A model generated the notes under the pieces. That model was not told the origin of the DNA, did no database searches, and worked only from the letters and a program-made list of their open reading frames with translations. A stretch of 64,000 nucleotides of DNA from a virus: positions 1-64,000 of the IMG/VR virus record IMGVR_UViG_3300031539_000005. One strand, 5' to 3'. Every line of letters begins with the position of its first letter. The first letter of the stretch is position 1. Position numbers and translations under genes: made by a program. Of this stretch, positions 1 through 61,002 are shown one piece after another.

Positions 1-236
1 CATCTTCTAGAAGTTCTTCTAGTTCATCTTCAAAGAGTAGTTCATCTTCTTCATCATCTTCAAGAAGTAGTTCATCTTCTTCTAGCTCTTCAAGAAGTTC
101 TTCAAGTTCATCTTCTAGAAGTTCTTCTAGTTCATCTTCAAAGAGTAGTTCATCTTCTTCAAGTTCTTCGAAAAGTTCTTCAAGTAGTAGTTCTAGTTTA
201 TCTTCATCTAGTTCTTCTAGAAGTTCTAGTTCTAGT
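1..236 (+). repeat. Ser-coding low-complexity repeat, first block
   Basis: Every complete codon from base 3 reads Ser (TCN and AGY mixed) with sparse Arg/Lys and one Leu. A 51-nt segment at 3-53 recurs exactly at 111-161, a 108-nt period. The block continues beyond the left edge of the window. Confidence 0.85.
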
Positions 237-1448
237 TGGCCTGGATACATGTTCCAGGATATTTATTATTTTGACGCTTATGATATTGGTGGAGAAGAAT
301 GGGAATCTGATCCAGAAGAAATGGTTGATGGAGATGAGGAAACACTTGCTTCTACAGTCACTGATGGGGATGTAGAACTATGTACGTCTAATACTTCGGG
401 CGGAATTGACTTAGGCGAAATATCCAAAGTAGAAATAAGAGCTTATGGTAATTCAAGTTCTGGAAACGCTACATATTTAAGACCAGTGTTTACAGGTGAC
501 GATGGAGATAATCATAATTCAGGACTTGGTGATTCTGGCGAATGGTCAAATTGGTTTGATATTACTTCCGACACTAACGCACCAGTTCCTTGGACTTGGA
601 CAGATTTAGATAATTTAGACTTGGATGTAGAGTTTAGTAAGAGCACAATCGGTGGCTCTAGTATAGGCATAATACAAATCAGGGTTACTTATTACTCAGA
701 TAGTAGCAGTAGTTCTTCTTCATCAAAATCATCAAGTTCATCAAGTTCTTCTAAAAGTTCAAGTTCCTCTAGTTCTTCAAGAAGTAGTTCTAGTTCATCT
801 TCTTCTCTATCCTCTAGTAGTAGTTCTTCTAGGAGTTCTTCAAGTTCATCTTCTTCAAGTTCTTCTAGCAGTTCTTCTTCTAGAAGTAGTTCATCTTCTT
901 CATCTTCATCAAGTTCGTCAAGAAGTAGTTCATCTTCTTCAAGTAGTTCATCGAGCAGTCGTTCTTCCAGTAGTTCTTCTTCTAGAAGTAGTTCATTTTC
1001 TTCAAGTTCTTCTAGCAGTTCTTCTTCTAGAAGTAGTTCATCTTCTTCTTCAAGAAGCAGTTCATCTTCTTCTAGCTCTTCAAGAAGCAGTTCATCTTCT
1101 TCTAGCTCTTCAAGAAGCAGTTCTTCCAGTAGTTCTTCTTCCAGAAGTAGTTCATCTTCTTCAAGTTCATTAAGTTCATCGAGTAGTTTTTCTTCTAAAA
1201 GCAGTTCTAGTTCTTCTTCATCTTCTAAAAGTTCTTCAAGTTCATCTTCTTCAAGTTCTTCTAGCAGTTCTTCTAAGAGTAGTTCAAGCAGCAGTTCTTC
1301 TAAGAGTAGTTCAAGCAGCAGTTCTTCTAAGAGCAGTTCATCTTCATCAACAAGCTTAGGAGCTCCTCATTTGATTTTAAAGGTTTCTAAGGGCAATGTG
1401 GAGTTTAAAGTACGAAAACAAACTGTGACAATAAAAGCAGAAAAGTAG
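1..1448 (+). CDS. Serine-repeat structural protein, 5' end outside window
   Basis: The frame is open from the first complete codon (base 3), so the ATG at 249 is internal and the gene is 5'-truncated by the window edge. What is visible is a Ser tract (to about base 236), a globular domain of roughly 150 residues (bases 237-702) rich in Asp, Gly and aromatic residues as in beta-sandwich carbohydrate-binding or fibre domains, a second Ser tract of about 215 residues (703-1352), and a short hydrophobic/basic beta-like tail (codons 369-399 counted from the ATG at 249). The Ser tracts carry a single Arg or Lys about every 7-10 residues. A second gene of the same design lies at 27081 in the tail region, so a fibre, whisker or head-surface role is inferred. 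The product is a plausible O-glycosylation substrate for the glycosyltransferases encoded just downstream. No named family is recognised. Confidence 0.8.
   Translation, partial: SSRSSSSSSSKSSSSSSSSSRSSSSSSSSSRSSSSSSSRSSSSSSSKSSSSSSSSSKSSSSSSSSLSSSSSSRSSSSSWPGYMFQDIYYFDAYDIGGEEWESDPEEMVDGDEETLASTVTDGDVELCTSNTSGGIDLGEISKVEIRAYGNSSSGNATYLRPVFTGDDGDNHNSGLGDSGEWSNWFDITSDTNAPVPWTWTDLDNLDLDVEFSKSTIGGSSIGIIQIRVTYYSDSSSSSSSSKSSSSSSSSKSSSSSSSSRSSSSSSSSLSSSSSSSRSSSSSSSSSSSSSSSSRSSSSSSSSSSSSRSSSSSSSSSSSSRSSSSSSSRSSSFSSSSSSSSSSRSSSSSSSRSSSSSSSSSRSSSSSSSSSRSSSSSSSSSRSSSSSSSSLSSSSSFSSKSSSSSSSSSKSSSSSSSSSSSSSSSKSSSSSSSSKSSSSSSSSKSSSSSSTSLGAPHLILKVSKGNVEFKVRKQTVTIKAEK
703..1352 (+). repeat. Ser-coding low-complexity repeat, second block
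   Basis: Codes for about 215 residues that are nearly all Ser with single Arg/Lys and a few Leu/Phe. Exact short tandem copies are visible: a 30-nt unit at 1051-1080 repeated at 1081-1110, and a 27-nt unit repeated about three times from 1263 to 1343. These indicate expansion by slippage or recombination while the frame is kept. Confidence 0.85.
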
Positions 1449-1457
1449 GGTCTAAAG

Positions 1458-1486
1458 ATTGTTGATGTTAGAAAGTCTTATATAAT
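1458..1486 (+). promoter_or_regulatory. Possible promoter before the GT9-MT-GT4 gene
   Basis: TATAAT at 1481-1486, preceded by the decamer context CTTATATAAT, lies about 46 nt before the ATG at 1532. No good -35 box is seen: TTGATG at 1462 leaves only 13 nt of spacer. The same decamer occurs at 7917-7926 in the other clear intergenic gap. Weak prediction. Confidence 0.25.
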
Positions 1487-1531
1487 CCTTGACAACATAA
1501 AATAAAATTAATCTCAGTAAAGGAGAGTTAA

Positions 1532-4500
1532 ATGTCAAGTTCGATAAAGAAATTCATGCTGGAAAGAGCAAAAGATTTAAGCAATGTAGAAGAAATTAGA
1601 GGGAAAGTTCCAGACGAATGTGTGATTAGTATTAAATATAAAGACGGAAGTTTTCATCATCTTCTCCCTTATTCTCTTGACCCTGCCGAATTCGTTGAAG
1701 ATTTAGTTCTAACTGAAGATATTCCCTTAGATCTTTTAGACAAAAAAGAAAAGACAGAAACTCTTCGAGAACAAAAGCCACTCATTCTGAAAAACAGACA
1801 AGCTTTTGGAGATATCTTAATGTTTACCTGTATGCATTATGCATCTCCAATTTTTCTTTCTAATGGAGATAAAAAGTTAATTGGGACAATAGTCAATGCT
1901 AAAGAAGAATTAAGTGTTAAATCTTTCAATTTTGAAACAAAGAAAATTGAAGACAAAAAAATAACGGGTTGGATTAAAAATAATCACAAGAGTAAAGAGT
2001 GGTATTATCTTTCTTTTGAAGGAGCAGCTCTTGTAAATAATGGCCCAGAAGTTCTTGCTGGAGTTTTTCTAACAGGAGATCATGAAGTATTTACCAAAAG
2101 AGGAAAAGTTAGAGTTGATTCATTAGATTTTGCAGAAAAAATTCTCGTGGATGAAAGAATTCCAAACAAAAGGCAAAAAGAGGTCTTTTTTGGTTCTCTA
2201 CTTGGCGATTCATCTCTGGGGAAAACCAATGGTAGCTTCACTCAGACAAGGGGAATATTTAGCTTTGGTCATTGTAAAGCCCAAGAAGAGTGGGCATTGT
2301 TAAAAGCAAAATGTTTTGAAGATTTTAGATTCGATTTTTCTGAAAGAGAATCTAATGGGAACAGACAAAATAGAGTTGGTGGATATACTCATTCTAATCC
2401 ATTCTTCGGAATTCAGAGAAGATTATGGTATAGAGAAATCAATGGAATAGAAAAAAAAATAGTTCCCGATTTTTTATCTAAGGAAAATTTTTCAACATTA
2501 GCTCTTGTCACTTGGTATCTTGATGATGGCACATTTCAGAAATCAAGGGAGTCAGGAGCCACATTTTGCAGCGAAAGCTTTACGGAAGAAGAAAATGAAA
2601 AACTTGCAAAAATTATAATGGAAAGATTTAATATCAAAGCCAGAGTTATTTCTGGCGATAAGAATGAAAAAACTTACTATAGAATCTATATTGGAAATGG
2701 ACACGATAAATCAGGAGATTCTGATGAATTCTTTAAACTTATAGCTCCTTATGTTCCATTATCTATGAGATTCAAGATACCAAATAAGTTTAAAGATATA
2801 CCTTTTAATGCAAGCCTTTGGGATCTTGGAGATTCATTGCCCTATTATGCCGAGTCAATAGTTGAGAAAAAAAGTCCATCTTCAAACTATCAACTTGATA
2901 AATCATATTGTATTAGTGTTGAGGATAATGAAAATTTCATAGTGAACAAAATGGTTGTTTCTAACTGCGCGGTTAGGGATATGAAAAGAGTTTTCCCAAA
3001 GTGGCCGATCAATGTTGCTTCTACGGCAATGCATATCTGGGATAATAATCCTTATTTGGATAGGAGTTTAACTCCTGAAAATGCAGAAGTCCTAGAAATT
3101 GGCCCTAGCTATTTGACTAATGCTAGTAATCGCGATGATAGACATTTTGCTAACGCTTTTAGAATAAGCATTGAACAAAAACTCGGGATTCAAATTCCAC
3201 AAGGGCTAATCAAACCAGATATTTGGATGACACAGGAAGAGATTGATACTCCTCCTATTGTCAATCCTCCTTATTGGATTATTCTTGCTGGCGAAAAAGG
3301 AGATTGGACAGCTAAAACTTATCCCTTCAACAGATGGCAGGAATTTGTTGAAAAGTTTGAGAATATGACTTTTGTCCAAATTGGAGGATCAGAGCATAAA
3401 CATCCTCTCCTGAAAGGCCCTAATATAATTAATTTCATCGGAAAAACTCAGGATAGAAATACTGGAATAAGAGATTTGTTTAAGCTTTTTTATCGCGCAG
3501 AGGGATCGATAGGGCTTGTGAGTTTCCAGATGCATCTTGCTGCTGCTTTTGGAATGCCTTGCATTGTTATTGCTGGAGCTAGGGAACCTGCAAGATTCAC
3601 CAGATATCCTGGTCATCAATATCTCTGTACGGATGGATGTCTTCCATGCGCAGAGGAGAAAGCTTGTTGGCACTGTAATTTAGAGAAAACATGTCCAAAT
3701 ATTGAAGAAGGAACGGATGGGCGAAAATATCCTAAGTGTGTGGAAATTATTCATACAGAAGATCTAGAACGCGCTTTTATCCAATTTTATGATGGAGGTA
3801 GATTAAGTTGGGAAAAAACAAGGAAGCTTACTTTACCTAATCCTCCTGTAATGGAAACTATCATCCATGCAATTGCTAAACCTGTTTCTTCTGAAAAAGA
3901 GGAAGGAGTAGCCGTTGACTTTTCTCCAGAAAAATATGGATTTGCCTGGGGAGGATCTTCAATTACTAAAGCTGATTGGATTTTTATAAAACCTATTCTT
4001 GAAAAATATGAAGTAGAAACCATTCTTGAATTTGGAGCTGGTTTATCTACTTTATTATTTGCAAGTCTTGGAATTAGAGTTATTTCTTTTGAATTGGATA
4101 AAGATGCAAAAGGTTCATGGTCAGATATGATATCAAGAAATAATCCGAATATTGATATTAGGATTTGGGATGGGAAAGATCTCCAAGGGCCACTTCCTCA
4201 TTTTGATCTTGTTTTTGTCGATGGTCCATCTGGAAGTCAGAACCGAGAAAGGTCTATTCAGCTTTCTTCTGAAATGGCTGATCTTATAATAGTTCACGAT
4301 GGAGGCAGAAAGCTTGAAAGTAAATGGCAAGCAGAATATATTGCTCCAAAATTTGCTTATACGGAAAATGGCGGAACAAGATCTGCTTTTTGGGCAAAGA
4401 CAAAGCCAGAAGAAGAAGCAGAACCACAAATTGTTTTTTCTCCTGAAAGATTGGTGAAAATGGTTTTTAATGGCAGAGGAGAAGGTGGAGCAGAAAGTTC

Positions 4501-5449
4501 TACAACATGGCTAATGAATAACTTTGTGGCATTAGGATATGATGTGGAATATATCCATACTCATGAAAAGCCATCTGGTACTTTTAGGAAGCAAGGTAAT
4601 CCCAAAATAGTTACAACGAACGATTTGGATGCTCTGACAGGGCCGTGCGAGCTCCTAATTTTATATACTAATGATTGGGTGTGGGATTTTAATAAAGAAC
4701 CTTTAGTGGATAAATTTCAACTAATTCACGCTAAACGTAAAGTTATGATTATCAATTATAGATTGGGAAAGATAGGTAAGATTCCATGGACTCAGGGATG
4801 GGATAAATACTTGTTTCTTAATTCTTCTCTCGAACAAGCTTTTATGGAATCAATTACAGAAGCTGTCGGAAGCAGTTGGAAAGGACTTACGAACTCTCTT
4901 AGTCCCCCTACTCTCTTGAATAGTTTTTTCGGTTCTCAAATTGATTATTCAGGAAGACTTAGACTCATTAGGCATGGCAGTCAGGGAGATTCAAAATATC
5001 CCAAAGATTTTAATCATATAGTAAAAACAATTCTGGAAGAGATTCCAGGTTGCGAAATTCATCTAATGCCTCCTCCTACTTTTCTTGCAGATTTTGGTGA
5101 AAGAGTTAAAAGCTATAAGAGAAATCAACCTCCTGTTTGGGAATTCTTGGAGAAGGGAAACTGTTTTTGGTATGCCTTGCCTCCAGGATATACAGACATG
5201 GGGCCAAAAGTTATCATGGAAGCTCAGGCTGCTGGCTTGCCAATAATTGCAGATAATCATAGTGGTCCAAAAGACAGAGTTGTGAGCAAAACTGGAATTC
5301 TGTGTGAAGATTTGGACGATTATATAGATGCTATGAAACTTTTCGATAATGAAAATATAAGAAAGGAAACAGGAATTAGGGCCAGAGATCATGCAATGAA
5401 AGAATATGATCCGGAAAGATGGATTAAAGAAATTATAGGAAATGAATAA
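1532..5449 (+). CDS. GT9 - methyltransferase-like - GT4 fusion protein, intein-containing precursor
   Basis: A 1305-residue precursor; removing the intein (100-478) leaves 926 residues. The first domain (about 80-99 plus 479-755) is GT9/heptosyltransferase-like: a GDILMFT loop, a late SFQMHLAAAFGMP segment matching the GT9 nucleotide-sugar site, and a Cys-rich C-terminal stretch. The second (about 785-930) is a class I SAM methyltransferase-like fold, with EFGAGLS at 833-839 and a VDGPSG strand near D897. The third (about 970-1305) is a GT4-type glycosyltransferase, with GRGEGGAES near 981-989 and the MEAQAAGLP donor motif at E1230. A Shine-Dalgarno AAAGGAGAG precedes the ATG, and the stop overlaps the next ATG by one base. 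Transfer and modification of sugars is supported by domain type only; donor and acceptor are unknown. It lies directly after the Ser-repeat gene, so that protein is a candidate acceptor. Confidence 0.85.
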   Translation: MSSSIKKFMLERAKDLSNVEEIRGKVPDECVISIKYKDGSFHHLLPYSLDPAEFVEDLVLTEDIPLDLLDKKEKTETLREQKPLILKNRQAFGDILMFTCMHYASPIFLSNGDKKLIGTIVNAKEELSVKSFNFETKKIEDKKITGWIKNNHKSKEWYYLSFEGAALVNNGPEVLAGVFLTGDHEVFTKRGKVRVDSLDFAEKILVDERIPNKRQKEVFFGSLLGDSSLGKTNGSFTQTRGIFSFGHCKAQEEWALLKAKCFEDFRFDFSERESNGNRQNRVGGYTHSNPFFGIQRRLWYREINGIEKKIVPDFLSKENFSTLALVTWYLDDGTFQKSRESGATFCSESFTEEENEKLAKIIMERFNIKARVISGDKNEKTYYRIYIGNGHDKSGDSDEFFKLIAPYVPLSMRFKIPNKFKDIPFNASLWDLGDSLPYYAESIVEKKSPSSNYQLDKSYCISVEDNENFIVNKMVVSNCAVRDMKRVFPKWPINVASTAMHIWDNNPYLDRSLTPENAEVLEIGPSYLTNASNRDDRHFANAFRISIEQKLGIQIPQGLIKPDIWMTQEEIDTPPIVNPPYWIILAGEKGDWTAKTYPFNRWQEFVEKFENMTFVQIGGSEHKHPLLKGPNIINFIGKTQDRNTGIRDLFKLFYRAEGSIGLVSFQMHLAAAFGMPCIVIAGAREPARFTRYPGHQYLCTDGCLPCAEEKACWHCNLEKTCPNIEEGTDGRKYPKCVEIIHTEDLERAFIQFYDGGRLSWEKTRKLTLPNPPVMETIIHAIAKPVSSEKEEGVAVDFSPEKYGFAWGGSSITKADWIFIKPILEKYEVETILEFGAGLSTLLFASLGIRVISFELDKDAKGSWSDMISRNNPNIDIRIWDGKDLQGPLPHFDLVFVDGPSGSQNRERSIQLSSEMADLIIVHDGGRKLESKWQAEYIAPKFAYTENGGTRSAFWAKTKPEEEAEPQIVFSPERLVKMVFNGRGEGGAESSTTWLMNNFVALGYDVEYIHTHEKPSGTFRKQGNPKIVTTNDLDALTGPCELLILYTNDWVWDFNKEPLVDKFQLIHAKRKVMIINYRLGKIGKIPWTQGWDKYLFLNSSLEQAFMESITEAVGSSWKGLTNSLSPPTLLNSFFGSQIDYSGRLRLIRHGSQGDSKYPKDFNHIVKTILEEIPGCEIHLMPPPTFLADFGERVKSYKRNQPPVWEFLEKGNCFWYALPPGYTDMGPKVIMEAQAAGLPIIADNHSGPKDRVVSKTGILCEDLDDYIDAMKLFDNENIRKETGIRARDHAMKEYDPERWIKEIIGNE
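1829..2965 (+). mobile_element. Intein with LAGLIDADG homing endonuclease domain
   Basis: Precursor residues 100-478 (379 aa). It begins with Cys100 and ends with Asn478 followed by Cys479 of the C-extein. Block B is seen as TGDHEVF (H184). Two dodecapeptide motifs typical of DOD homing endonucleases are present: LLGDSSLG (223-230) and WYLDDGTF (328-335). The C-terminal splicing block reads VVSN/C, so the usual penultimate His is replaced by Ser. Removing it joins GDILMFT to CAVRDMKRVFP, which aligns with the uninterrupted GT9 genes at 38207 (GDILFMTTGIKELKRRYP) and 55010 (GDVMFMLPLIRFLKK). Splicing activity is inferred; some inteins with a substituted penultimate His are active. Confidence 0.9.
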
Positions 5450-6471
5450 TGACTGAAGAAAAAAAAGTGTTCGTTAGAAATTGGGATGGGAATGGCGAAT
5501 TTGATCCTTGTTCCCTCTATAACTGGCGGCTAGGCTGGTTGGAAACAAGAGTGGCTCAACACCATAAAAGTGGAACAATCTTTCCTGATGATCAGTATCA
5601 GCGATGGTGGGATGAAGAAGAAAAAGTATATCAGAGTAACAAATTGTCTATGCAAAAGGTTGAAAAAATGAATGGCAAGGTTGGAATAATTGTTCCAGCT
5701 TGCTCTAATCATTTAAAGTTTTTGAAAGCTTGTCTTGAATCTTGTTCCGCAACGGGATATTATATTCTAGTTGCCTATGATAATCCTTTTTTTGACAAGA
5801 ATCACAAAACAGAATTGAGAATGCCTTCTGCTGAAACTTTTATGCTGGCAGATACCTTTTTAATGAAACATAAAACATGGGGAGGCGGAGTAGGAATTCC
5901 TCATGCCTGGAATATGTTCTATGGACTTAAGCTTTTACATTCTCTTGGATTTGAATATCTCTTTAATCTTAATGGGGATTGTATTTTGGAGAAGCCTGAA
6001 AATTTCCCAAAATTAATAGAGATGCTTGGAGATGCCGATATAATTGCTTGTGAATATATTCCAGAAAAGAAATATTGTGGAACTATGGCTTGGCTATGCA
6101 AAATGGAAATGGCTCTATCGGTTTGGACTTTATACATAGAAAAATTATATCACTTCAATATAGGAAATGCTGAACGTAGGATGGGTGAGTGGCTTTTTGA
6201 AAATAAAGCTAAAGTTGTCCCCGTTGTGAATCCGACAGAGGCCCATTTTAAACCACCTGGCTCTCAAGATGCTACTTTCAGAACTCTTTTGGGATTAAGA
6301 CATTTACATGCCGAACATAAAGTTCGGAAAACACTTAAGATGGAGCCCATTGAGAGAAAATATTTTGACTTTGGTCCTAATAATATTTTTATGAGCGGAT
6401 ATGATCAACAAACTCTTATGAAATATTGGGAAACAGGAGATCGTAAATTTCTAGAACAATGGTGGGGATAA
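5449..6471 (+). CDS. GT-A fold glycosyltransferase-like protein
   Basis: 340 aa. After an N-terminal extension of about 75 residues rich in Trp and charged residues, the segment KVGIIVPACSNHLKFLKACL is a family 2-like nucleotide-binding start, and LNGDCILE occupies the place of the DxD metal/sugar-nucleotide motif. GGGVGIPHAWN is the usual intervening loop. The C-terminus (FDFGPNNIFMSGY onward) is not recognised. The start overlaps the preceding stop by one base (TAATG), indicating translational coupling to the GT9-MT-GT4 gene. It may extend or alter a glycan made by that enzyme; specificity is unknown. Confidence 0.7.
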   Translation: MTEEKKVFVRNWDGNGEFDPCSLYNWRLGWLETRVAQHHKSGTIFPDDQYQRWWDEEEKVYQSNKLSMQKVEKMNGKVGIIVPACSNHLKFLKACLESCSATGYYILVAYDNPFFDKNHKTELRMPSAETFMLADTFLMKHKTWGGGVGIPHAWNMFYGLKLLHSLGFEYLFNLNGDCILEKPENFPKLIEMLGDADIIACEYIPEKKYCGTMAWLCKMEMALSVWTLYIEKLYHFNIGNAERRMGEWLFENKAKVVPVVNPTEAHFKPPGSQDATFRTLLGLRHLHAEHKVRKTLKMEPIERKYFDFGPNNIFMSGYDQQTLMKYWETGDRKFLEQWWG

Positions 6472-6474
6472 TCA

Positions 6475-7413
6475 ATGGAAAGAAAAGTAAACTATTACAT
6501 GGATGAAATTGATCAGATTGTATCTGGACAAATTGTTTATCCTATAACTTGTGAAATTGATCCAAGTAATGCTTGCAATCTTCATTGTTCTTTTTGTATG
6601 TATGCGGATTATTTGAAAAATCACCGCGAAAAGATGTCTCTTAGTACCTTTTCCTATTTAATAAGCGATCTCTATAAATTGAAAGTAAGAAGCATTACTT
6701 TCACAGGAGGAGGTGAACCTCTCTTTCATCCTTTAATTAATGAAATGATTGACTTGGCTCATAATTTAGGATTTAAATTAGGATTAGTTACAAATGGGAC
6801 TTTTCTTCACAGACTTATTCATCCAGAATATTTTACTTTCATTCGGATTAGCATTGATTCTTATGACGAATCTTCTTACAGAAAGGTTAAGGGAAAGAAT
6901 TTATTTACAAAAGTTATCAGTAATGTAGAATATCTTATTTCCCTGGGCGTAACAGATGTGGGATTAAGCTATGTAATTTGTGAAGATAATTGTGCTGGTC
7001 TTGAAATAGCACAGAATATCGCTAATAGTCTCGGAGTGTCCTACATTCAGTTTAAGCCAGCTTGGACTAAGAATGGAACCTTTAAAATTGCCGATATAAA
7101 AAATTCTGAAGATAGGGCTATTGTTACTTCTCGTTATCCGGCTACTGATAATTTGCCTTGTCTTATTGCAGGATTGATAGGAATAATTGGTGCAGATGGA
7201 AAAGTTTATTTTTGTTGTCAATTTAGGGGAAATTCTGATTTTGTCTTGGGGGACTTGGCAGAAAACTCTTTTAGTGAGATTTGGCCTAGACGATATAAAA
7301 AAGGATATGATATATCAAAATGTCCTAGATGTAGATATCAAAACTACGCAATAGGATATAGAGAATTTAGTAAGCCTAAATACATTTTTCTTAGACATAT
7401 TGATTTTCTATAG
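6475..7413 (+). CDS. Radical SAM enzyme, SPASM-like C-terminus
   Basis: 312 aa. The 4Fe-4S motif CNLHCSFC (Cys34, Cys38, Cys41) follows CEIDPSNA, and the SAM-binding GGE motif appears as FTGGGEPL. The barrel continues with LVTNGTFL and RISIDSYDESSY. Near the C-terminus are VYFCCQF, GDLAENSFSEIW and CPRCRYQN, the layout of a SPASM/twitch auxiliary cluster region. SPASM enzymes modify peptides or small substrates by radical chemistry; the target cannot be read here. It is coupled (3-nt gap) to the glycosyltransferase before it and lies in the same run as the Ser-repeat gene, so a role in sugar synthesis or structural-protein maturation is possible. Confidence 0.85.
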   Translation: MERKVNYYMDEIDQIVSGQIVYPITCEIDPSNACNLHCSFCMYADYLKNHREKMSLSTFSYLISDLYKLKVRSITFTGGGEPLFHPLINEMIDLAHNLGFKLGLVTNGTFLHRLIHPEYFTFIRISIDSYDESSYRKVKGKNLFTKVISNVEYLISLGVTDVGLSYVICEDNCAGLEIAQNIANSLGVSYIQFKPAWTKNGTFKIADIKNSEDRAIVTSRYPATDNLPCLIAGLIGIIGADGKVYFCCQFRGNSDFVLGDLAENSFSEIWPRRYKKGYDISKCPRCRYQNYAIGYREFSKPKYIFLRHIDFL

Positions 7414-23095: not shown

Positions 23096-23097
23096 TC

Positions 23098-24264: not shown

Positions 24265-24275
24265 GAGGTTTTGAA

Positions 24276-24698: not shown

Positions 24699-24699
24699 T

Positions 24700-42947: not shown

Positions 42948-43279
42948 ATGTCAAAAGCTACCAAAAAAAAATGTAAATGTGGCGAAACCACTTATACTCA
43001 AAGTGGTATTTGCAAAAAATGTCAACCTCCTAAAAGTAAAAAAAAATACTTGAACTTGAGCCTGAAGCAGAAATAAATAATTTTGAACAAATACTCCTAG
43101 AAGTAAATCTTACAAATAAACCAAATGTCTTAAAGGCTTTAGAACAAATTGCTAATCGGGATATAAGAACAGTGGAAGAACAAGCTTTGTATTATATTAT
43201 CTCTTGTTTAAAAGATGAAGTAGATGTGCGCTTGCTCTTAAATAATAAAGATAAATCTCTAAAAGGAGAAAAGTCATGA
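42948..43279 (+). CDS. Zinc-ribbon protein split by a -1 shift at an A9 run
   Basis: The frame from ATG 42948 reads MSKATKKKCKCGETTYTQSG, then CKKCQPPKSKKK, and stops at 43076. The -1 frame opens at 43040, within the A9 run 43038-43046, and continues ILELEPEAEINN... to a TGA at 43277 that overlaps the next ATG (ATGA). The second frame has no early start codon, so the two are best read as one protein of about 110 residues made by -1 slippage on A-AAA-AAA or disrupted by an indel. Zinc site C-x-C / C-x2-C in front, acidic helical region behind. No Shine-Dalgarno was seen at 42948. Confidence 0.5.
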
Positions 43280-46188: not shown

Positions 46189-47489
46189 TAAGTATTCTTA
46201 TTCCTACCTGTAAAAGACTAAGTTCTCTACTTAATTGTATTGACAGTTTAATGCGAATAGATGATCCTAGTGGTTTAGAAGTCATTGTTGCTGTTGATGC
46301 AGATCCTTCTACGAAAGAACTTGTTGAGATATATTTATCTCGGCATACTAGCTTTGGTGCTTTTAAAGTAGTCCTTTCAGAAAAAAGACAATATTCTATT
46401 GGAATTTATAATCTTGCCTTTAAAGCATCTACTCAGGAAGTATTCATTTGGTTAGCCGATGATGTAATAATCAGAAAAACTGATTTCATTACTAGGTTCA
46501 CTAAATGGTTCTATGAAGATTTTCCTGATGGAATTGGAGTTATGAGTCTCTCAGCTCAGGGGGGGGCTGGTTTCGGGATATCTACTAAGAGCTTTGTTAT
46601 ATATAATGATGATGAATTTTTCCATAGTGGATATAGAGATCACTATGCTGATACAGAGTTAACCAAAAGAGCAATTCTGATGGGACGTTATTCTTGGGCG
46701 CATAATTCTAATATGATTGAACATGATGGAAATTTGTCAGAAGTAGATGAAAAAATAAGATATGATATAAAGAGGACAGATGGAGTTCTATTTGGTAAAC
46801 GTCAAGAACTGCGATTTATGTTAGATCCTAGCAAAATACTCTATCCAGATTATAATTGTAAAGAATGGGAAAAAGTGATAATGGTATTGCCTGAAAAACT
46901 TGGAACAAAAGTTCTCCCAATAAGCGTGGGGAGAAGAACTGAGAAGCTGCTTATAGATGATCCTGGTGGTAAAATTAGATTCTATCAAAGTCCTGGTTGT
47001 TCTTTTCATGGTTTGTTAATCTTATGGTGGATTCATTTTGGTCTAGAAGGCCATGGAGCAATGATAGGAGATACTCCTCTCGTGGGAGAGGAACTTTTAA
47101 AGCAATTTCCTAAAATCACGAAATTGGATTTCATTAATTTAGAGAAAGTAGCTCATACTCTTGTTTGGGATATTACAAAGCCAATTAGTGAATTTATGGA
47201 TCCTCCATACCCCGAATATGATTGGATTATATGTCAGGCAGTATTGGAGCATGTCATTGATCCCTATGGAGCTGTAAAGAATCTTGTATCTGTTCTTAAG
47301 CCAGGAAAATTATTGTTTCTTCATACAGTTGGCCCCGAATTTCCTTATCATAGATATCCAATAGATTGTTATAGATTCTTTAGAGATATATTTATAAAAT
47401 ATGCTGAAGAATTTGATTTAGAAATAGAAGATATTTATTCTAATTTGATACATACTTTTGTTGCATATAGAAAAAAAAATGGCAATTGA
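46185..47489 (+). CDS. GT2 - SAM methyltransferase fusion (tandem copy 2)
   Basis: 434 aa. The first 250 residues parallel the preceding gene (MISILIPTCKRLSSLL, VIVAVDADPSTKE, FIWLADDVIIRKTDF, FGISTKSFVIYNDDEFFHSGY). The last 170 residues are a Methyltransf_11-like domain lacking a sharp motif I, with WDITKPISEF, WIICQAVLEHVIDPYGA and LKPGKLLFLHTVGPEF. Fusion of sugar transfer and methylation suggests that the added sugar is O-methylated, a common chain-end cap; this is inference. Overlaps the next gene by 11 nt. Confidence 0.75.
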   Translation: MISILIPTCKRLSSLLNCIDSLMRIDDPSGLEVIVAVDADPSTKELVEIYLSRHTSFGAFKVVLSEKRQYSIGIYNLAFKASTQEVFIWLADDVIIRKTDFITRFTKWFYEDFPDGIGVMSLSAQGGAGFGISTKSFVIYNDDEFFHSGYRDHYADTELTKRAILMGRYSWAHNSNMIEHDGNLSEVDEKIRYDIKRTDGVLFGKRQELRFMLDPSKILYPDYNCKEWEKVIMVLPEKLGTKVLPISVGRRTEKLLIDDPGGKIRFYQSPGCSFHGLLILWWIHFGLEGHGAMIGDTPLVGEELLKQFPKITKLDFINLEKVAHTLVWDITKPISEFMDPPYPEYDWIICQAVLEHVIDPYGAVKNLVSVLKPGKLLFLHTVGPEFPYHRYPIDCYRFFRDIFIKYAEEFDLEIEDIYSNLIHTFVAYRKKNGN

Positions 47490-48009
47490 AGATTGGACTA
47501 TAATTAGAAAATTGGCAGGATCTATTTTAAGCAATACGGCAGGAAATTGTATTGTGGAAATAGGGAGAGGACATTCAACTTCTCTTTTCCGTTCTTATTC
47601 TATGATATTTGGAATTCCTTTGTTTAGTTGCGATATTAATTATAAAAAAGAAGTCAACGAGCCACTTTTCAAAACAATTGCTAAATCTTCTGTTGATTTT
47701 ATGAAATCTTTCAATGGGATCCCTTCTCTTGTATTGTTAGATGGGTGTCATGATTATGATGTTGTAATAGAAGAAGCAAATTTCTTTATTAAGAAGCTTG
47801 TTGTTCATGGAGTTTTATTTATTCATGATACCTATCCTTGTCTTCCTGGTTATTTGGTGCATGAAAGTTGTAGCGATTGCTATAGAGTTCGCATAGAATT
47901 AGAAAAGCGAACGGATATATATTGTTTCACTTGGCCTTATACGGCAAATAATCAAGGACTAACGATGATTTTAAAAAAAGATTTTAATAGACCATTTTAT
48001 AGGGAGTAA
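47479..48009 (+). CDS. SAM-dependent methyltransferase-like protein, paralogue of 32608
   Basis: 176 aa from ATG 47479 (MAIEDWTIIRKLAG), which aligns with the start of the 32608 product (MSSWPIIDNLAG); a TTG at 47458 is possible but adds unmatched residues. CIVEIGRGHSTSLF, LFSCDIN, LVLLDGCHDYDVV, VLFIHDTYPC and CFTWPY parallel its homologue. One copy is in the tail-tip cluster and one in the sugar island, linking the two regions. Confidence 0.7.
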   Translation: MAIEDWTIIRKLAGSILSNTAGNCIVEIGRGHSTSLFRSYSMIFGIPLFSCDINYKKEVNEPLFKTIAKSSVDFMKSFNGIPSLVLLDGCHDYDVVIEEANFFIKKLVVHGVLFIHDTYPCLPGYLVHESCSDCYRVRIELEKRTDIYCFTWPYTANNQGLTMILKKDFNRPFYRE

Positions 48010-48011: not shown

Positions 48012-48230
48012 ATGAGTTTTCCTTCGAAAAGTATACAAGAAGCAGTGGAAAGAGCTAAAGAAAATATAACTAAACTTAATTCATGTTCTAAACCTCATGA
48101 TTTTTCTATTCCCACAAGCGAGAGTCCTTTTTTTGCGAAGCATGAATGTTCAAAGTGTGGAGGTAAAGTGGATTCAGCAAGCAAAATCTGGTATGAAAGA
48201 GGACTTGAGGATGCGAAAGAAAGTAGTTAA
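48012..48230 (+). CDS. Small Cys-containing protein
   Basis: 72 aa, 2 nt after the methyltransferase. Helical N-terminus (SIQEAVERAKENITKLN), then HECSKCGG, a CxxC with flanking Cys/His that could hold zinc. The end overlaps the GT4 start by 20 nt. Function unknown. Confidence 0.5.
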   Translation: MSFPSKSIQEAVERAKENITKLNSCSKPHDFSIPTSESPFFAKHECSKCGGKVDSASKIWYERGLEDAKESS

Positions 48231-49263
48231 ACTAATAGATTATGTTTTTCAACATCACTTTCAGCTCACAGAAGCTTACGATGATTCTAATTCGATGAGA
48301 TATTTGAGTGATGAATTTGATATAGAAATCATTGGTCGTTTTATCCAGAACAAAATAACTGAACATAGGGTTAAAGGCCCTTCTACGGATTATAAGGTCA
48401 CTTTTTTACCAAAATCTTTTAGCATTCAAGCTGTAGTGGATTATATTTTAAAGCTTAATCCTAATGTGATCCACATGCATGGTAATCACGGGTGGCCCCA
48501 ATATCCAATTTATGCTTCTGCTTTTGTTAATAAAGGAATTAAGCTTATCTTTAGTCCAGCAGGAGCTAGTTGTGGAACTCATGAATTTTTAGAGTGCTTT
48601 GATACTGTGATTGTAAATCATGTAGAACAAATTAAACGAATGCGTTGTCCTCCGGCAAAGGTTCTCGTTAGACATAGGGGAGCAGATCCTAGCGTATTTT
48701 ATCCTGTTCCTGGAGGGAAGAAGAAATATAATTTTGTATATGTGGCTGGTTTTGTTCCGCAAAAGAGACTAGATTTCATGATTGAATGTGTAAAGAATAC
48801 TCCTTATAACATGGTTATCTTAGGAGACTTTACTAGATTAACAGAACATTATATTTTAATTCGTGATATAATTAAACTACAGCGCCTTGAAAATAAAATA
48901 TTCTTACATGACTTTATTCCTCAGACACAAATGTCTCAATTTTTAGGACAATGTAAGGTGTGGGTATGGCCTAATATTAAGCCAGAGAACCCTGAGACGA
49001 CCACCAATCGCTCCATTATCGAAGCTTTAGGTTGTGGTATGCCTTTATTGGTTGGAGAACGAGCCTTTAAGAATTCTCATTTTTTGATTACGGGCATTAA
49101 CGGATATAGTTATTCTACAAAGGAAGAGTTCCAAGAAAAAGCTAATTTAATAATGGAAGATTATCTTTCTTTTGGAAAAAATAGTGTAATTCTTGGCAGA
49201 GTTAAATTCTCATTTCAGGAAAATTTTATTGATTTCTATAAAAATTGCTATAATTCTTCATGA
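48211..49263 (+). CDS. GT4 family glycosyltransferase
   Basis: 350 aa from ATG 48211, preceded by GAGGACTTGAGG; an upstream in-frame ATG at 48097 would run through the previous gene in another frame. GT-B features: IHMHGNHGWPQ, VYVAGFVPQKRLDFMIE and the donor motif RSIIEALGCGMPLLVGE. Soluble, no signal peptide. Overlaps the next gene by 4 nt. Confidence 0.8.
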   Translation: MRKKVVKLIDYVFQHHFQLTEAYDDSNSMRYLSDEFDIEIIGRFIQNKITEHRVKGPSTDYKVTFLPKSFSIQAVVDYILKLNPNVIHMHGNHGWPQYPIYASAFVNKGIKLIFSPAGASCGTHEFLECFDTVIVNHVEQIKRMRCPPAKVLVRHRGADPSVFYPVPGGKKKYNFVYVAGFVPQKRLDFMIECVKNTPYNMVILGDFTRLTEHYILIRDIIKLQRLENKIFLHDFIPQTQMSQFLGQCKVWVWPNIKPENPETTTNRSIIEALGCGMPLLVGERAFKNSHFLITGINGYSYSTKEEFQEKANLIMEDYLSFGKNSVILGRVKFSFQENFIDFYKNCYNSS

Positions 49264-49475
49264 CCAGAGCGAATCCTATAAAGCTTAATCGCCCTATTAA
49301 CATGGTTGAATTAGATGTACATAGGCATCCGGACTGTTCTGATTATGAAAAATGTTTAGATAAAGCGGTCTATAAGAGATGGAGAGGATTTAGTTGTTTA
49401 AAATGTACTTTTTTCCGAAAATATAAGAAGATAAGAAAGAGGTTAGATCAGCTTTATGGAAAGGGAGGAATATAA
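49260..49475 (+). CDS. Small Cys-motif protein
   Basis: 71 aa. C-x5-C (CSDYEKC) followed after 14 residues by CLKC gives a likely metal site in the segment HPDCSDYEKCLDKAVYKRW. Short proteins with a CxxxxxC...GFSCxxC pattern are frequent in phage genomes, without known function. Basic C-terminus. Confidence 0.6.
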   Translation: MTRANPIKLNRPINMVELDVHRHPDCSDYEKCLDKAVYKRWRGFSCLKCTFFRKYKKIRKRLDQLYGKGGI

Positions 49476-50256
49476 AGAGTATTGGGAAAAGAGATCAAAC
49501 ACTTATAAGTCTTTAGATGATGTGAGTAGTAAGCGGACGGCTTATAAGATTGTGAATTTAGCTAAATCTCTTGGATTGCCTTTTGCTCCTTCCATACTGG
49601 ATGTCGGTTGTGGCCCAGGAATAATTACTCGAGTCTTGCGAGAGAACTTTAGACATTCTACAGTTTGGGGGATTGATTTTTCAGAAAAAATGATTCAAAA
49701 AGCTCAGCAAAATTGTCTTCCTGATTTAAAATTTACTTGCGAAGACTTCTTGAGTTCTTCTTTTATTCCAGATCAAAAATTTGATTTTATTTTAATGAGC
49801 CTTGTTTTGCATCATTTACTTGATGGGAAAGATTTTGTTGCTCTTCTTAAGGCAAATTCTTTATTGGCAAAGAATGGATCCATTATTGTTGCAGAGGCAG
49901 TTCCTCCGGAAGATGAAATTTTTGAGGAATATAGGAATGTTTTTTTACTCAAAGAAAGAAGGAACTGCTATCTTGTTAATCATCTTGTGGCAATGCTTCG
50001 GTCTGCTGAATTTGTGAGAGTGAGATCTACTACTTATAGATTCTGGATAAGGATGTTCAAATGGCTGAATGACGATACATTGTCTAAAGAGAAGAAACGA
50101 CTAATTTGGAGTTTACATCTCAATGGCTCTGCTAGATGGAAATTGGCCTACCAAATGACATCAGTAAAGAGTAATGTGCGGGGTTTTGAATTTGACGACT
50201 ATGAGCTTAAGTGCAAAATGGCACTTATTACAGGCAGGAAGATAGTGGAAAAATAG
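49456..50256 (+). CDS. Class I SAM-dependent methyltransferase
   Basis: 266 aa. Clear motif I SILDVGCGPGIITRVL, motif II WGIDFSEKMIQKAQ, and FDFILMSLVLHHLLDG with AKNGSIIVAEAVPP. A C-terminal 90-residue region (FWIRMFKWLNDDT) may bind substrate. Small-molecule or sugar O/N-methylation is more likely than DNA methylation because the catalytic NPPY/DPPY motif is missing. Last gene before a strong terminator. Confidence 0.8.
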   Translation: MEREEYKEYWEKRSNTYKSLDDVSSKRTAYKIVNLAKSLGLPFAPSILDVGCGPGIITRVLRENFRHSTVWGIDFSEKMIQKAQQNCLPDLKFTCEDFLSSSFIPDQKFDFILMSLVLHHLLDGKDFVALLKANSLLAKNGSIIVAEAVPPEDEIFEEYRNVFLLKERRNCYLVNHLVAMLRSAEFVRVRSTTYRFWIRMFKWLNDDTLSKEKKRLIWSLHLNGSARWKLAYQMTSVKSNVRGFEFDDYELKCKMALITGRKIVEK

Positions 50257-55009: not shown

Positions 55010-56221
55010 ATGAGAATAGTTAAAACTCTTATAGAAATGAAGATTTATGACGATTTAATTCTGAGAAGAGACGAAGAATATGTTATGGCGGGAGCAGTTC
55101 TGAAGCAGTTGTCAAAGATTTATCCAGGAGGAATTATAGAAACTGGGAACTTTGATGACCACTATAGACCTATAAATGTCAAAACTCTTGAAAAGAATAA
55201 ACGCTTATTTATTTTTAGGAGCGGAGGAATTGGAGATGTTATGTTCATGTTGCCTCTTATTCGTTTTTTAAAAAAGCAATTTGGAACACGAATTAAGGCG
55301 GGAACTTCTCCTCAGTATAGAGATGTTTTGCAAAACAATCCCTATATTGATGAAATTATCAGTGTTCCTTTTCTGTTAAGGGAAATGGATACTGATTATC
55401 ATTTAATGTTTGAAGGAATTATTGAAGATCCTAGTGAAAAACCTAAGAAATATCATGCAGTGGATTTATTTTTAGAAGAAGCTGGAGTTAATCCAGAGGA
55501 TATTCCTTGGGATGAAAAAATTCCACCTCTTTTTTTGAGTCAAGAAGAAAAAACGTGGAGTAAAAATAGGCTTTCTAAACTTGATATTCCTTTGGGAGCT
55601 AAAATTGGGATTCAAGTACAAGCAAGTTCACCAGTTCGAACTTTCCCTTTGGATAAAACAGTTGGAATTATTAAATTGTTGATTAATCAGGGAAACAATA
55701 TTTTTCTTTTTGGCGGACCAAGGCAAGCTGAATTTACAAATTATTTAACAAGTCTCCTGGGAGAAGCTAGGAGACTCATTAATTTAGTTCATAAGGATAT
55801 TACTCTCCGTCAATCAATAATTTGGGCGAGCATGATGGATTTGATTATTGCTCCAGATTCAGCTTTTATTCATATAGCTGGAAGTTTGGGCGTTCCACTA
55901 ATTGGACTCTATGGGTGTTTTCCTTCTCTATTGCGTATGAAATATTATAGGAATGCAATTGGCATTGATTGTAATGTAGCTTGTGCTCCTTCTTTTATTC
56001 ATGGACATCTGCCTTGCTATAAAGGAGATCCATCTCCTTGCTTTTCTGTAGTGAAAGTCCAGAATGTTCTTGATGCTGTTGAACATATTCTTGGGATTAA
56101 GAAAATTCCCAATGAGTATCCTGCTTATAATGAATTTAGAGATAGCGTTTTATCTCATTCTCCTTTTATTCAAATTTCTGAAGCGCTTAAGGAAACAGCG
56201 GGTCTTAAGGATGGGAATTAA
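55010..56221 (+). CDS. GT9 family glycosyltransferase (cassette copy 2)
   Basis: 403 aa. IFRSGGIGDVMFMLPLIRFLKK is the GT9 loop; IGIQVQASSPVRTFP, NIFLFGGPRQAE and IIAPDSAFIHIAGSLGVPLIGLYG form the donor site; the end has CAPSF...LPCYKGDPSPCF. It is similar to the 38207 product over its whole length but carries a C-terminal extension of about 45 residues. It is transcribed with replication genes, so it is probably made earlier than the other sugar genes. Confidence 0.85.
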   Translation: MRIVKTLIEMKIYDDLILRRDEEYVMAGAVLKQLSKIYPGGIIETGNFDDHYRPINVKTLEKNKRLFIFRSGGIGDVMFMLPLIRFLKKQFGTRIKAGTSPQYRDVLQNNPYIDEIISVPFLLREMDTDYHLMFEGIIEDPSEKPKKYHAVDLFLEEAGVNPEDIPWDEKIPPLFLSQEEKTWSKNRLSKLDIPLGAKIGIQVQASSPVRTFPLDKTVGIIKLLINQGNNIFLFGGPRQAEFTNYLTSLLGEARRLINLVHKDITLRQSIIWASMMDLIIAPDSAFIHIAGSLGVPLIGLYGCFPSLLRMKYYRNAIGIDCNVACAPSFIHGHLPCYKGDPSPCFSVVKVQNVLDAVEHILGIKKIPNEYPAYNEFRDSVLSHSPFIQISEALKETAGLKDGN

Positions 56222-56600: not shown

Positions 56601-57598
56601 TGTTCAGCATTACTTCTTTACTAGATAAAAAGAAAATAGAATATAAAAGAATAGGAGAAGAACTCTTTTTTGATTGTCCTATTTGTGGCCGAGAAAAACA
56701 TTTCTATTATAATGTGAAAAAGGATTTATGCCTTTGTCAGCGTTGTAAGTGGGAAGGGAATCGTGTTGGTTTTCTAATTAGTGGACTTGGCTATTCTAGA
56801 AAAGAGGCTATGGCCCTTATTAAATCTGAAGAAAGTTTGAATTTCGCAGATTTACATTCTCGAATTACCTCGATGTTAACCTCGAAAACGAAAGTGGATT
56901 TCTTTATTGAACCAATTTATTTCAAAATTCCTTTGCCTGATCGTATATTATCGGTTACGAAAAAAAATTTTCCAAAAGCAGTGGCTGAACGTGGAATCAA
57001 TTGGAAGCTTGCGAACGCTTTACATTTATATACTTCTGTTGCGAGTCATGGGAGATTTTTTAATAGAATAATTGTTCCTGTTGAGACTCTCAAAAGTAAA
57101 TGTTTTGTAGGGATAACCGCATTCACTAGAGAAAAAGCTAAAAAAGTAAAGGAAGCTCAAAGAAAAAGAGGCCTTGAATTTAGGAAGTCTTTGTTTCCAA
57201 AAGGCTCAATTATGTCTGAAATGCTTTACCTTTATAATAGGGTGGCCCACCGTAAAAATAGATTGTTTGTCGTAGAAGGAGTCTGGGATGTCTGTAGCTT
57301 ACTTCGCTTGAGAGAATTTGCAACTTGCACTTTTGGAGATAAGGTCAGTAAGTCACAGGCTTTATTACTTGCGAATACTGAGGCAGAGAGCATTTATTTA
57401 ATGCTTGATGGGGATGTGCCTTTAAAGAGACTAAGAAAGTATTATGAATTATTAAGGCTTATTTGTTTTGATAAAAAAGTATACATGTGTAGACTTCCAG
57501 AAGAAAAAGATCCAGATGATTTGGCAGAGGATGAGTTAAGAGAAGTAATTAACGCAGCAGAGAAAAGAGGTTATTCATTATGGACGGTAGGGAAATAA
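56600..57598 (+). CDS. DNA primase, DnaG-type
   Basis: 332 aa. CHC2-like zinc motif CPICG (26-30) with CQRC (46-49), a central basic region, and a Toprim domain with FVVEGVWDV (catalytic Glu) and LMLDGDVP (DxD), then EEKDPDDLAED. Shorter than bacterial DnaG because the C-terminal helicase-interaction domain is missing. Makes RNA primers with the DnaB-like helicase at 53379. Confidence 0.88.
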   Translation: MFSITSLLDKKKIEYKRIGEELFFDCPICGREKHFYYNVKKDLCLCQRCKWEGNRVGFLISGLGYSRKEAMALIKSEESLNFADLHSRITSMLTSKTKVDFFIEPIYFKIPLPDRILSVTKKNFPKAVAERGINWKLANALHLYTSVASHGRFFNRIIVPVETLKSKCFVGITAFTREKAKKVKEAQRKRGLEFRKSLFPKGSIMSEMLYLYNRVAHRKNRLFVVEGVWDVCSLLRLREFATCTFGDKVSKSQALLLANTEAESIYLMLDGDVPLKRLRKYYELLRLICFDKKVYMCRLPEEKDPDDLAEDELREVINAAEKRGYSLWTVGK

Positions 57599-58488
57599 AG
57601 AAGCAATTTAGTAGAATATTACGCTATCCTAAACTGGAAACGGATAGGCATGAAGAAGTTAAGGTTACTGGGAATAATCTTTTATATTCTCTGACAAAAC
57701 ATGATGAAAATATAAATGAATCTGGAATAGAGAATCTTGGAACGGATTGGATGCTGTTAAATATGGGTCAAGGGAATTTTAAGTTTTCAAGAAGATGGGC
57801 ATGGATTTTTAGGCATTACATTTGGGCTTCTAGAGTTCCTTCTTTCGAACAGAGAAGGGCAAGGCTTGTTGATATCGGGTGTGATGTCGGCGAAATACGA
57901 AAGCTAATAAGTAAATCCTTTTATACGAAAAATCCTCTCTATGTAGGTATTGATCTTGATCATAGGAGATTGGAACAAGGTGCTGAAAGAATACAAATGA
58001 AGATTCCCGCAGTTTATATTCAGGAAGATGTTACTCTTGGACTTCATTTCATTCAATCACATTCTATTGATCTTATTTTTTGCGGAGAGATAATAGAACA
58101 TTTTTCAAAGAAGTTTGGGATTCGGATGCTTAAGGAAATGTATAGGATATTGAAGCCAGGAGCATCTTTTTTGTTATCTACTCCTAATAGAGATAATACA
58201 AAGGGATTCAAATTTCATGTTTATGAATATTCAATTCCCGAACTAAAACAATTGATTTCAAAATGTGGATTTGAAATAACAAATGTTTGGGGGTGGACTA
58301 CTACAGAAAGACGTATTTTACAAGGTACATCTAGGGCAGTTTCTAAAATATACAGTCTATTAAAAGAAAGTGTGCATAAGGATATAGTGGTCCCGCTCAT
58401 GGCATTTATTGATCCATCTATTTCGGAAGCATTTTGTATTGAAGCTAAGAAGCCGGAGTTGCCAAATAAAAAAAGTGTGGATGGATGA
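57580..58488 (+). CDS. Class I SAM-dependent methyltransferase
   Basis: 302 aa, overlapping primase by 19 nt. Motifs RLVDIGCDVGEIRKLI, YVGIDLDHRRLEQG, DLIFCGEIIEHFSKKFG and YRILKPGASFLLSTPNRDN are those of Methyltransf_11/UbiE-like enzymes acting on small molecules or sugars. The GxGxG loop is IGCDVGE, lacking one Gly. It ends the replication transcript; why it is co-transcribed with primase is unclear. Confidence 0.8.
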   Translation: MDGREIKKQFSRILRYPKLETDRHEEVKVTGNNLLYSLTKHDENINESGIENLGTDWMLLNMGQGNFKFSRRWAWIFRHYIWASRVPSFEQRRARLVDIGCDVGEIRKLISKSFYTKNPLYVGIDLDHRRLEQGAERIQMKIPAVYIQEDVTLGLHFIQSHSIDLIFCGEIIEHFSKKFGIRMLKEMYRILKPGASFLLSTPNRDNTKGFKFHVYEYSIPELKQLISKCGFEITNVWGWTTTERRILQGTSRAVSKIYSLLKESVHKDIVVPLMAFIDPSISEAFCIEAKKPELPNKKSVDG

Positions 58489-59592: not shown

Positions 59593-59616
59593 GTTAGGAA
59601 TTGCATTTTTGGTCGG

Positions 59617-59646
59617 AAAGGGGCAGCTTGTCTGCCCCTTTTTATT
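59617..59646 (+). terminator. Rho-independent terminator
   Basis: AAAGGGGCAG pairs with CTGCCCCTTT around the loop CTTGT, followed by TTATT. It lies 25 nt after the acidic-protein stop. Confidence 0.9.
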
Positions 59647-59658
59647 GGAGAGAGGCCC

Positions 59659-61002
59659 ATGAGAGAAGTTTTTCTAGATAAGGATAGCGCCAGAGATTTT
59701 CTTACGAGAAAGAAAGTTCAAGATTATAAGTTTATGGATAGATATAATCTTGAATTATTGGTTAATTCAAAACTTTCATCAGGTAAAATACACGCTAATG
59801 TTTTACCAGATCTTCTTAATCATTGTTTGGGAACCAGAGTAGCTTATGGATTCAACTATTGTCTTTCACATCCTATCACCAATAGAAATGTTACTGAAAA
59901 CCTTTTAGAAATTCCTGTTCTGAAAGAGTTTCTAGCTAGAGGATGTAAGATTTCTTTTATTGGGAAATCTAGTAAGAAGTTTGAAGGTTTTCATCCTGAT
60001 ATGAAAGACTATAGTGGAGAATGGAAAAAACTTCCTACTCCATATAAGCCTATTGCTGATTGGATAGAAGACTGTTTGGAAAACTATGAGACTCGCTATG
60101 GAATGGAATTTCCTAAAGCAGACGTGGTAGTAACGAATGCTTTTCCTTCCTTTTTCTTTTCAAACATGATGTTTTATTTGATCAATTTGCATTATGCAAA
60201 AACTCATACCCCTGTTTTCTTGTGGGATTATGAATTGAGGACTCTTAGAACAAGTGAAAAAGATAATCTTCCCAAGAAATATTTCAGATATTCTGGAGCA
60301 GATAAAATCTTTTCAGTTGATCAATTCAAAACTATTGCTGATAATGCTTATTGGCTATTACAAATTCCTGGTGAAGCTCTAGATAGAATCAAGAGTCTTA
60401 ATCCTAGAATAAGAATTTTGCCATTTTTCCCACCTTATAGCTTTCAATTTGGTCAGTATAATATATGCCCAAAGACTATATATCGTCTTGCATACATCGG
60501 TAACGATTCAGAAAGAAGACAAACTTTTAGAAAGTTCTTTACTCCATTGGAGAAGAAGAATAGATTAGATCTTTTTGGAGGAGGGATGTCTAGAAGGGCA
60601 GAAGGCTACGAAAATTTTGAAAAGTATATAGGTAATACAGAGATGCATGGCCCTATTCCGCAAGGGGATGTATGGAAGACATATAATCAAGCAAGAACTT
60701 GTTTATCTATTGCAAGGCCCAGATATTATGAAATGGGATGGATTGTTCATCGCTGGTTTGAAGTGATTCTCAGTGGTTGCATTTTGTTAGTCCCAGGAGA
60801 GATGCATGGAATCAGGCGGTATATGAGTAAATATTTTATTGTCAATGATGCGAAAGAGCTAGATGAAAAAATTCAGTTCTTTAATGATAAACTCACACAT
60901 TCAAAGCTATTGCAATTCCATCAATGGCAAAAGAGATTTATCTATCGACTCTTCAATTCAGAACGCTGTGTTGATGTTATCCTGAGGGTAATAGGAAAAT
61001 GA
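59659..61002 (+). CDS. CgeB-like / GT-B glycosyltransferase
   Basis: 447 aa. The second half (RLAYIGNDSERRQTFRKFF, RLDLFGGG, HGPIPQGDVWKTYNQARTCLSIARP, HRWFEVILSGCILLVPGEMHG) matches the donor domain of the CgeB/glycosyltransferase-family-1_2 group, with a terminal Glu in RWFEVILSGC. The first half is a GT-B acceptor-type fold with KADVVVTNAFPSFFF and FLWDYELRTL. Soluble. It starts a short operon after the terminator and overlaps the next gene by 4 nt. Confidence 0.75.
   Translation: MREVFLDKDSARDFLTRKKVQDYKFMDRYNLELLVNSKLSSGKIHANVLPDLLNHCLGTRVAYGFNYCLSHPITNRNVTENLLEIPVLKEFLARGCKISFIGKSSKKFEGFHPDMKDYSGEWKKLPTPYKPIADWIEDCLENYETRYGMEFPKADVVVTNAFPSFFFSNMMFYLINLHYAKTHTPVFLWDYELRTLRTSEKDNLPKKYFRYSGADKIFSVDQFKTIADNAYWLLQIPGEALDRIKSLNPRIRILPFFPPYSFQFGQYNICPKTIYRLAYIGNDSERRQTFRKFFTPLEKKNRLDLFGGGMSRRAEGYENFEKYIGNTEMHGPIPQGDVWKTYNQARTCLSIARPRYYEMGWIVHRWFEVILSGCILLVPGEMHGIRRYMSKYFIVNDAKELDEKIQFFNDKLTHSKLLQFHQWQKRFIYRLFNSERCVDVILRVIGK

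Follow-up and report, generated by a model that had tools for sequence, protein, structure and literature searches.

Bases 1-64000 (the window) of a 122,493-bp IMG/VR record of an uncultured virus (IMGVR_UViG_3300031539_000005) contain phage structural genes for a head maturation protease, a major head protein, a tape measure, and tail proteins, with two genes for serine-rich proteins and numerous glycosyltransferase (GT) and methyltransferase genes lying amid them. An earlier note on this DNA, made without database searches, had proposed that these enzymes glycosylate the serine tracts of the phage's own fibres. The gene for Ser-tract protein 1 (3..1448, plus strand; 59 % Ser), cut at its 5′ end by the record end, encodes Ser tracts that surround a beta-rich-looking domain. 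It lies 84 bp upstream of a gene encoding a GT9-methyltransferase-GT4 fusion, which is followed directly by a 5449-like GT gene, named here from its position. Ser-tract protein 2 (27081..28643, plus strand; 45 % Ser) is encoded in the tail region, where its neighbours match tail families, and consists of an N-terminal domain judged by eye from the sequence to be discoidin-like, a Ser tract, and a conserved beta domain. Both are real open reading frames (ORFs) that use all six Ser codons, and the two serine-rich proteins and their setting among head and tail genes stand as the earlier note had them. The record start (window 1-3) falls inside a Ser tract, probably at an assembly break in the repeat, and no portal or terminase gene was recognised in the 122,493-bp record, therefore the genome looks incomplete.

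The two enzymes encoded after Ser-tract protein 1 were used as markers of a module. In the fusion (1532..5449, plus strand), the GT9 part scores 19 bits in Pfam, under the cut-off of 22, but aligns with intein-free orthologues of about 50-52 % identity; the middle is a methyltransferase domain from reading of the orthologue alignment, and the C-terminal GT4 has a weak Pfam match. The GT9 domain is interrupted by an intein (1829..2965, plus strand; amino acids 100-478 of the fusion, between GDILMFT and CAVRD; LAGLIDADG_2 and Intein_splicing) that is missing from all four aligned relatives. Its endonuclease match is strong and its splicing-motif matches are weak; motifs, endonuclease, and intein-free exteins were all found. 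An internal intein-splicing match, below cut-off, was also seen in a sugar epimerase (L246:5682-7763) of another Ser-tract phage, G060. The second marker (5449..6471, plus strand) has no Pfam match, and no sequence relative of solved structure was detectable for its family. Its AlphaFold model (pLDDT 89) has GT-A folds as structural neighbours, in agreement with the GT-A type transferase proposed earlier, and across 35 homologues the NGDC motif is conserved and D111, D177, and E242 are invariant. With the fold modelled at high confidence, it is taken to represent a new family of GT-A-fold glycosyltransferases.

In IMG/VR, 23 loci have a homologue of the fusion and 41 have one of the 5449-like GT, many of them in records sharing few or no other genes with this phage, including records of 273, 188, 132, and 120 kb. 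Contigs with either marker were counted as module-bearing, a Ser tract was scored at the ORF level as a stretch of 20 or more residues of which no fewer than 15 are Ser, and lineages were defined by clustering contigs on genes other than those of the module; a first clustering, which chained through module genes, was discarded and redone without them. Ser tracts were present in 37 of the 52 module-bearing contigs and, when lineages are counted, in 16 of 21 (Fisher p = 3e-9 for lineages), as against none of 30 neutral contigs and none of five other phage GT9 loci. The neutral contigs were picked by a neutral 16-mer and checked by ORF at the locus and by codon pattern over whole records; a WSN codon pattern was rejected as the sole detector of Ser tracts because antisense poly-Glu gives false matches. 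Where a tract was in reach (22 loci), the nearest lay a median of 1.8 kb from the 5449-like GT gene and on the same strand in every case. The association of these phage genes is real and recurrent. The link between Ser tracts and GTs that the earlier note had drawn is thus upheld across lineages, but it is not strict.

An independent DNA scan for polyserine gave 31 contigs, five of which, from one phage group, are also among the 41 loci with a 5449-like GT, while a sixth has a fusion-like GT9. Further long-tract phages carry other sugar genes: an HldE kinase and a GT4 in G037, and a GT2, a GT4, and an epimerase in G060. In one phage group (L190, L195, L196, L202, and L205) a single Ser tract of ~420-935 residues stands beside two 5449-like GTs. 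Among bacterial genomes, one contig of a metagenome-assembled genome (CAJVXN010000005.1, 67 kb) has the fusion and a Ser-tract gene; the Ser protein (L177:18824-21562) has 912 amino acids, is 48 % Ser, and is possibly from a binned phage.

The composition of the tracts bears on what they are for. All six Ser codons occur in both tracts of the window at roughly the background proportions of other or neighbouring genes, therefore the tracts are not an artefact of DNA triplet slippage. Runs of about 7-16 Ser are followed by a single punctuating residue. Module-bearing phages gave 214 distinct tracts, with 14,495 Ser codons and 1,647 interruptions in all. Among the interruptions, Gly, Pro, Ala, and Thr fall ~7- to 30-fold short of what one-step mutation of Ser codons would produce; Arg, Leu, Lys, Val, Glu, and Ile are the frequent ones, some of them needing two mutations from Ser codons, and Thr is nearly absent: the tracts in a set of 78 Ser proteins contain 15,378 Ser and 35 Thr. 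Such a composition points to selection for segments of Ser alone, punctuated by bulky or charged residues, and is not that of an ordinary flexible linker. Thirteen tracts from phages lacking the module, a small sample, likewise have no Pro or Ala, but do have Gly, therefore dependence of this tract grammar on the module is not proven.

It is fairly probable that the module glycosylates the Ser-tract fibre proteins of the phage's own virion. Alternatively, the tracts could be unmodified polyserine linkers between binding domains, and the proximity of the GTs could come from frequent exchange at tail-fibre loci, which are hot spots for it. Polyserine is a known type of bacterial linker, in relatives of this phage the tracts connect lectin-like or beta domains, and two Ser-tract phages (G062 and G064) have no recognised GT. 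Nevertheless, unmodified linkers are unlikely, given that a specific module is linked to the tracts at short distance and on one strand in most lineages while the five other phage GT9 loci have no tract at all, and that Gly, Pro, Ala, and Thr, the residues common in linkers, are avoided.

Evidence for the sugar donor comes from within and beyond the window. The nucleotidyltransferase gene at 44224..44658 (plus strand), which the earlier note had called TagD/HldE-like, matches HldE domain II best (TIGR02199, 68.4 bits, cut-off 181) and fits TagD less well (57.8 bits). An HldE-type heptose-7-phosphate kinase with the motif DVTGAGDTV is encoded outside the window at record 87260-88273 (TIGR02198, 312 bits, cut-off 345), next to an RmlB-like dTDP-glucose 4,6-dehydratase, the pair spanning record 87260-89275. 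The HldE kinase is present in four Ser-tract lineages. In G018, an HldE kinase (236 bits) and an HldE adenylyltransferase (154 bits), adjacent to each other, RmlB, and a DegT aminotransferase are all encoded beside the fusion, as are two GTs of the 5449-like family and an enzyme resembling rhamnosyl-O-methyltransferase. Since the HldE kinase, the HldE-II-like gene, and RmlB occur with three GT9 domains of the heptosyltransferase family, a donor of ADP-heptose type is the simplest guess and, on these sequence matches, a likely one; it is an addition to what the earlier note proposed. Heptose as the first sugar is a less secure proposal, judged rather less likely than not.

The GT9 enzyme encoded at 38207..39328 (plus strand) was compared with the heptosyltransferases TibC and AAH. 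In TibC, which hyper-heptosylates Ser and leaves Thr unmodified, the N-terminus forms a beta-barrel, and the four residues Cys 339, 342, 358, and 370 make up an iron finger (PMC4358343). The phage enzyme shares the GT9-like GT-B catalytic domain (Pfam GT9, 69 bits). In its model (pLDDT 86) residues 1-50 are beta-rich and may correspond to the barrel, and a C-terminal Cys/His finger (C-x2-C ... HGH ... C ... C) at a similar place may correspond to the iron finger. In the phage finger C325, C336, C344, and HGH are invariant, the position of the fourth Cys is variable, the spacing is shorter than in TibC, and model confidence is low there. The best fold matches of the model are lipopolysaccharide (LPS) heptosyltransferases (WaaF) and a Veillonella GT9, with TibC after them (E 9e-9); a profile search with the phage GT9 matched 1psw and 3tov and did not recover TibC, and the phage sequence is not closer to TibC/AAH than to LPS heptosyltransferases. 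Membership of the bacterial autotransporter heptosyltransferases (BAHT; AAH/TibC) is therefore not supported, although by analogy the phage GT9s may work like BAHT enzymes. BAHT enzymes use an ADP-heptose donor, which is only surmised here, and their substrates are beta-helical autotransporters (PMC4358343), whereas the phage candidates are Ser tracts.

Several observations weigh against glycosylation of the tracts. The G016 record (120 kb) has the module, comprising the fusion, methyltransferases, three 5449-like GTs, and an aminotransferase assigned to the DegT type because it resembles the one in G018. Tail genes occupy the corresponding locus, yet no Ser tract accompanies them; the record may be incomplete. 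The shorter fragments G020, G021, L262, L270, L285, and L294 also have the module and show no tract, and conversely there are the two tract phages without a recognised GT. The cross-phage check suggested by the earlier note thus gave tracts in most module contigs and, in G016 and the fragments, the refuting case as well. The flanking domains of the Ser proteins are partly homologous between lineages, therefore the lineages are not fully independent. The records are incomplete fragments and the neutral sample is small. The HldE matches are under the equivalog cut-offs, and no GmhA homologue was found in any record searched, so the heptose precursor, a sugar phosphate, would need to be supplied by the host.

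The G016 record would also fit a module whose targets are other virion proteins, such as those of the capsid or tail tube or the binding domains adjoining the tracts, in which case the tracts would be a correlated feature of the same fibres. There is precedent in mycobacteriophages, which are described as glycosylating capsid and tail-tube proteins (PMC12363180). Such targets would not by themselves explain why Ser tracts recur as neighbours of the module, and this explanation is considered quite unlikely.

A search for close relatives with the major capsid protein as query found 24 loci of 77-100 % identity, and the five longer records (G002, G005, G008, G012, and G013) are syntenic, all with a Ser-tract gene at the position of 27081-28643. 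The N-terminal domains attached to the tract differ among the relatives, as do the punctuating residues (Arg or Lys in the window, G012, and G002; Leu, Asn, Tyr, and Val elsewhere), while Ser richness is kept. The conserved beta domain of Ser-tract protein 2, used as a probe, found the same lineage only, and the tail protein encoded at 30132-31745 found nothing as a marker for relatives. The GT2/GT4/GT9 block at 38207-61002 recurs in G005 and G024 at roughly 35-64 % identity, and this cluster, with its CgeB and CDP-glycerol types, was seen as a block only in this phage lineage. Probably only part of the enzymes listed in the earlier note belongs to the linked module.

The remaining enzymes of the window are all encoded on the plus strand. 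Besides the fusion domain and 38207..39328, a further GT9, confirmed by Pfam and with a second copy of the Cys/His finger, is encoded at 55010..56221. Pfam identifies GT2 enzymes at 39312..40046, 44671..45402, 45412..46188, and 46185..47489, the last with a C-terminal methyltransferase, a GT2-like enzyme at 43276..44214, a GT4 at 48097..49263, a CDP-glycerol glycerophosphotransferase-like transferase (Glyphos_transf) at 40635..41645, and a CgeB-type GT (PF13524) at 59659..61002. Methyltransferases are encoded at 32608..33126 (class I, PF13578, a recurrent module member), 47458..48009 (PF13578), 49456..50256, and 57580..58488. The three GT9, five GT2, two GT4, one CgeB-type, and one CDP-glycerol-type enzymes and the six methyltransferase domains counted in the earlier note are therefore all accounted for, including the sub-cut-off GT9, the weak GT4, and the central methyltransferase of the fusion.

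The highest 19-residue hydropathy in the window GTs is 1.73 and none resembles an integral membrane protein, which agrees with enzymes that are soluble and cytoplasmic. This bears on whether the enzymes instead alter host surface glycans, in serotype conversion or superinfection exclusion, as the resemblance of the GT9 and CDP-glycerol-type enzymes to those of LPS and teichoic acid might suggest. These GTs have no clear membrane segments, neither a flippase nor a polymerase was recognised in the genes scanned, and the enzymes are interspersed among structural genes and show linkage to Ser-tract genes; such a role is hardly credible.

A thymidylate synthase (TS)-family protein of 408 amino acids, which could be a nucleotide-modifying variant, is encoded at window 62758-63984 and also in G005 and G024. 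If it made a modified base, the GTs might act on hydroxymethylated phage DNA. TS-family genes occur in G015 and G018 as well, with a sub-cut-off match in G014; as a discriminator, however, TS is not decisive, being common in larger records. G016 has the module and no TS match in 120 kb, DNA modification gives no reason for linkage to Ser-tract genes, and a complement of five GT2 and three GT9 enzymes with a CDP-glycerol-type transferase and methyltransferases is larger than DNA glucosylation requires. Modification of DNA by these enzymes is considered very improbable.

If, as preferred here, the tracts are glycosylated, the phage-encoded system would operate in the cytoplasm on the fibres of its own virion. 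The HldE-type kinase (87260-88273), the nucleotidyltransferase (44224-44658), and RmlB would provide activated sugars, probably including an ADP-heptose-type donor. The GT9 domains and the GT-A enzyme (5449-6471) would place the first sugars onto tract Ser of the proteins encoded at 3-1448 and 27081-28643, and the GT2, GT4, and methyltransferase enzymes would extend and methylate the glycan. Tract Ser as the acceptor and the order of the steps are presumed, as is the benefit: masking may be the gain, or a linker between binding domains that is bristle-like or resists proteases. A stronger version, judged somewhat less likely than not to be correct, is that a horizontally spread O-glycosylation cassette, combining the new GT-A family and the GT9-methyltransferase-GT4 fusion with phage heptose chemistry, has polyserine fibres as dedicated substrates and makes mucin-like bristles of them.

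The record has further features of note. A radical SAM/SPASM enzyme (6475..7413, plus strand) adjoins the module and has an orthologue beside the 5449-like gene in the relative G002; a second radical SAM enzyme is encoded at record 121233-122108. Two homologous proteins of ~190-205 amino acids (L006/L007) are encoded in tandem at record 118501-120278. A direct DNA search of GenBank phages with window 20000-32000 gave no match, and the major capsid protein has only distant matches in known phages, at ~25 % identity (Ruegeria, Arthrobacter, Vibrio, and other phages).

The arrangement resembles that of the glycosylated serine-rich repeat adhesins of Gram-positive bacteria, in which a gene for a long Ser-rich protein stands beside a GT cluster. 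Those adhesins carry SASTS-type repeats, whereas the phage tracts are Ser runs with single punctuating residues; no GtfA/GtfB-type pair or SecA2/SecY2, for which no dedicated profile search was made, was noticed among the scanned genes. Nearly pure Ser segments also lie between binding domains in Saccharophagus and Teredinibacter carbohydrases, but the phage tracts are often far longer, are punctuated by Arg, Leu, Lys, Glu, Val, or Ile, and are linked to a GT module. Searches of the literature gave no polyserine phage fibre with glycosyltransferases.

To our knowledge, glycosylation of virion proteins has been shown in few cultured phages only. Virion glycosylation is reported for the mycobacteriophages Che8, Corndog, and Myrna (Freeman et al., 2023, as cited in PMC12363180 and PMC11256854). 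There, phage-encoded GTs are reported to act on phage virion proteins, with capsid and tail-tube proteins as the targets; here the phage GT genes are tied to virion protein genes by adjacency, synteny, and cross-phage linkage, but the enzyme set differs, the pathway is HldE-type, and the proteins are polyserine. Phage virion glycosylation itself is known, and the polyserine-linked module, most likely one for virion glycosylation, would be a new variation on it. Neither marker enzyme occurs in any of the 50,697 GenBank phage records searched, therefore the phenomenon is invisible in cultured phages. If the proposed function is correct, virion glycosylation would be a widespread strategy, since the recurrent, recognisable module is associated with polyserine fibres across some 16 lineages, and these phages would define a new glycosyltransferase family and provide a simple co-expression system for testing the hyperglycosylation of pure Ser tracts.

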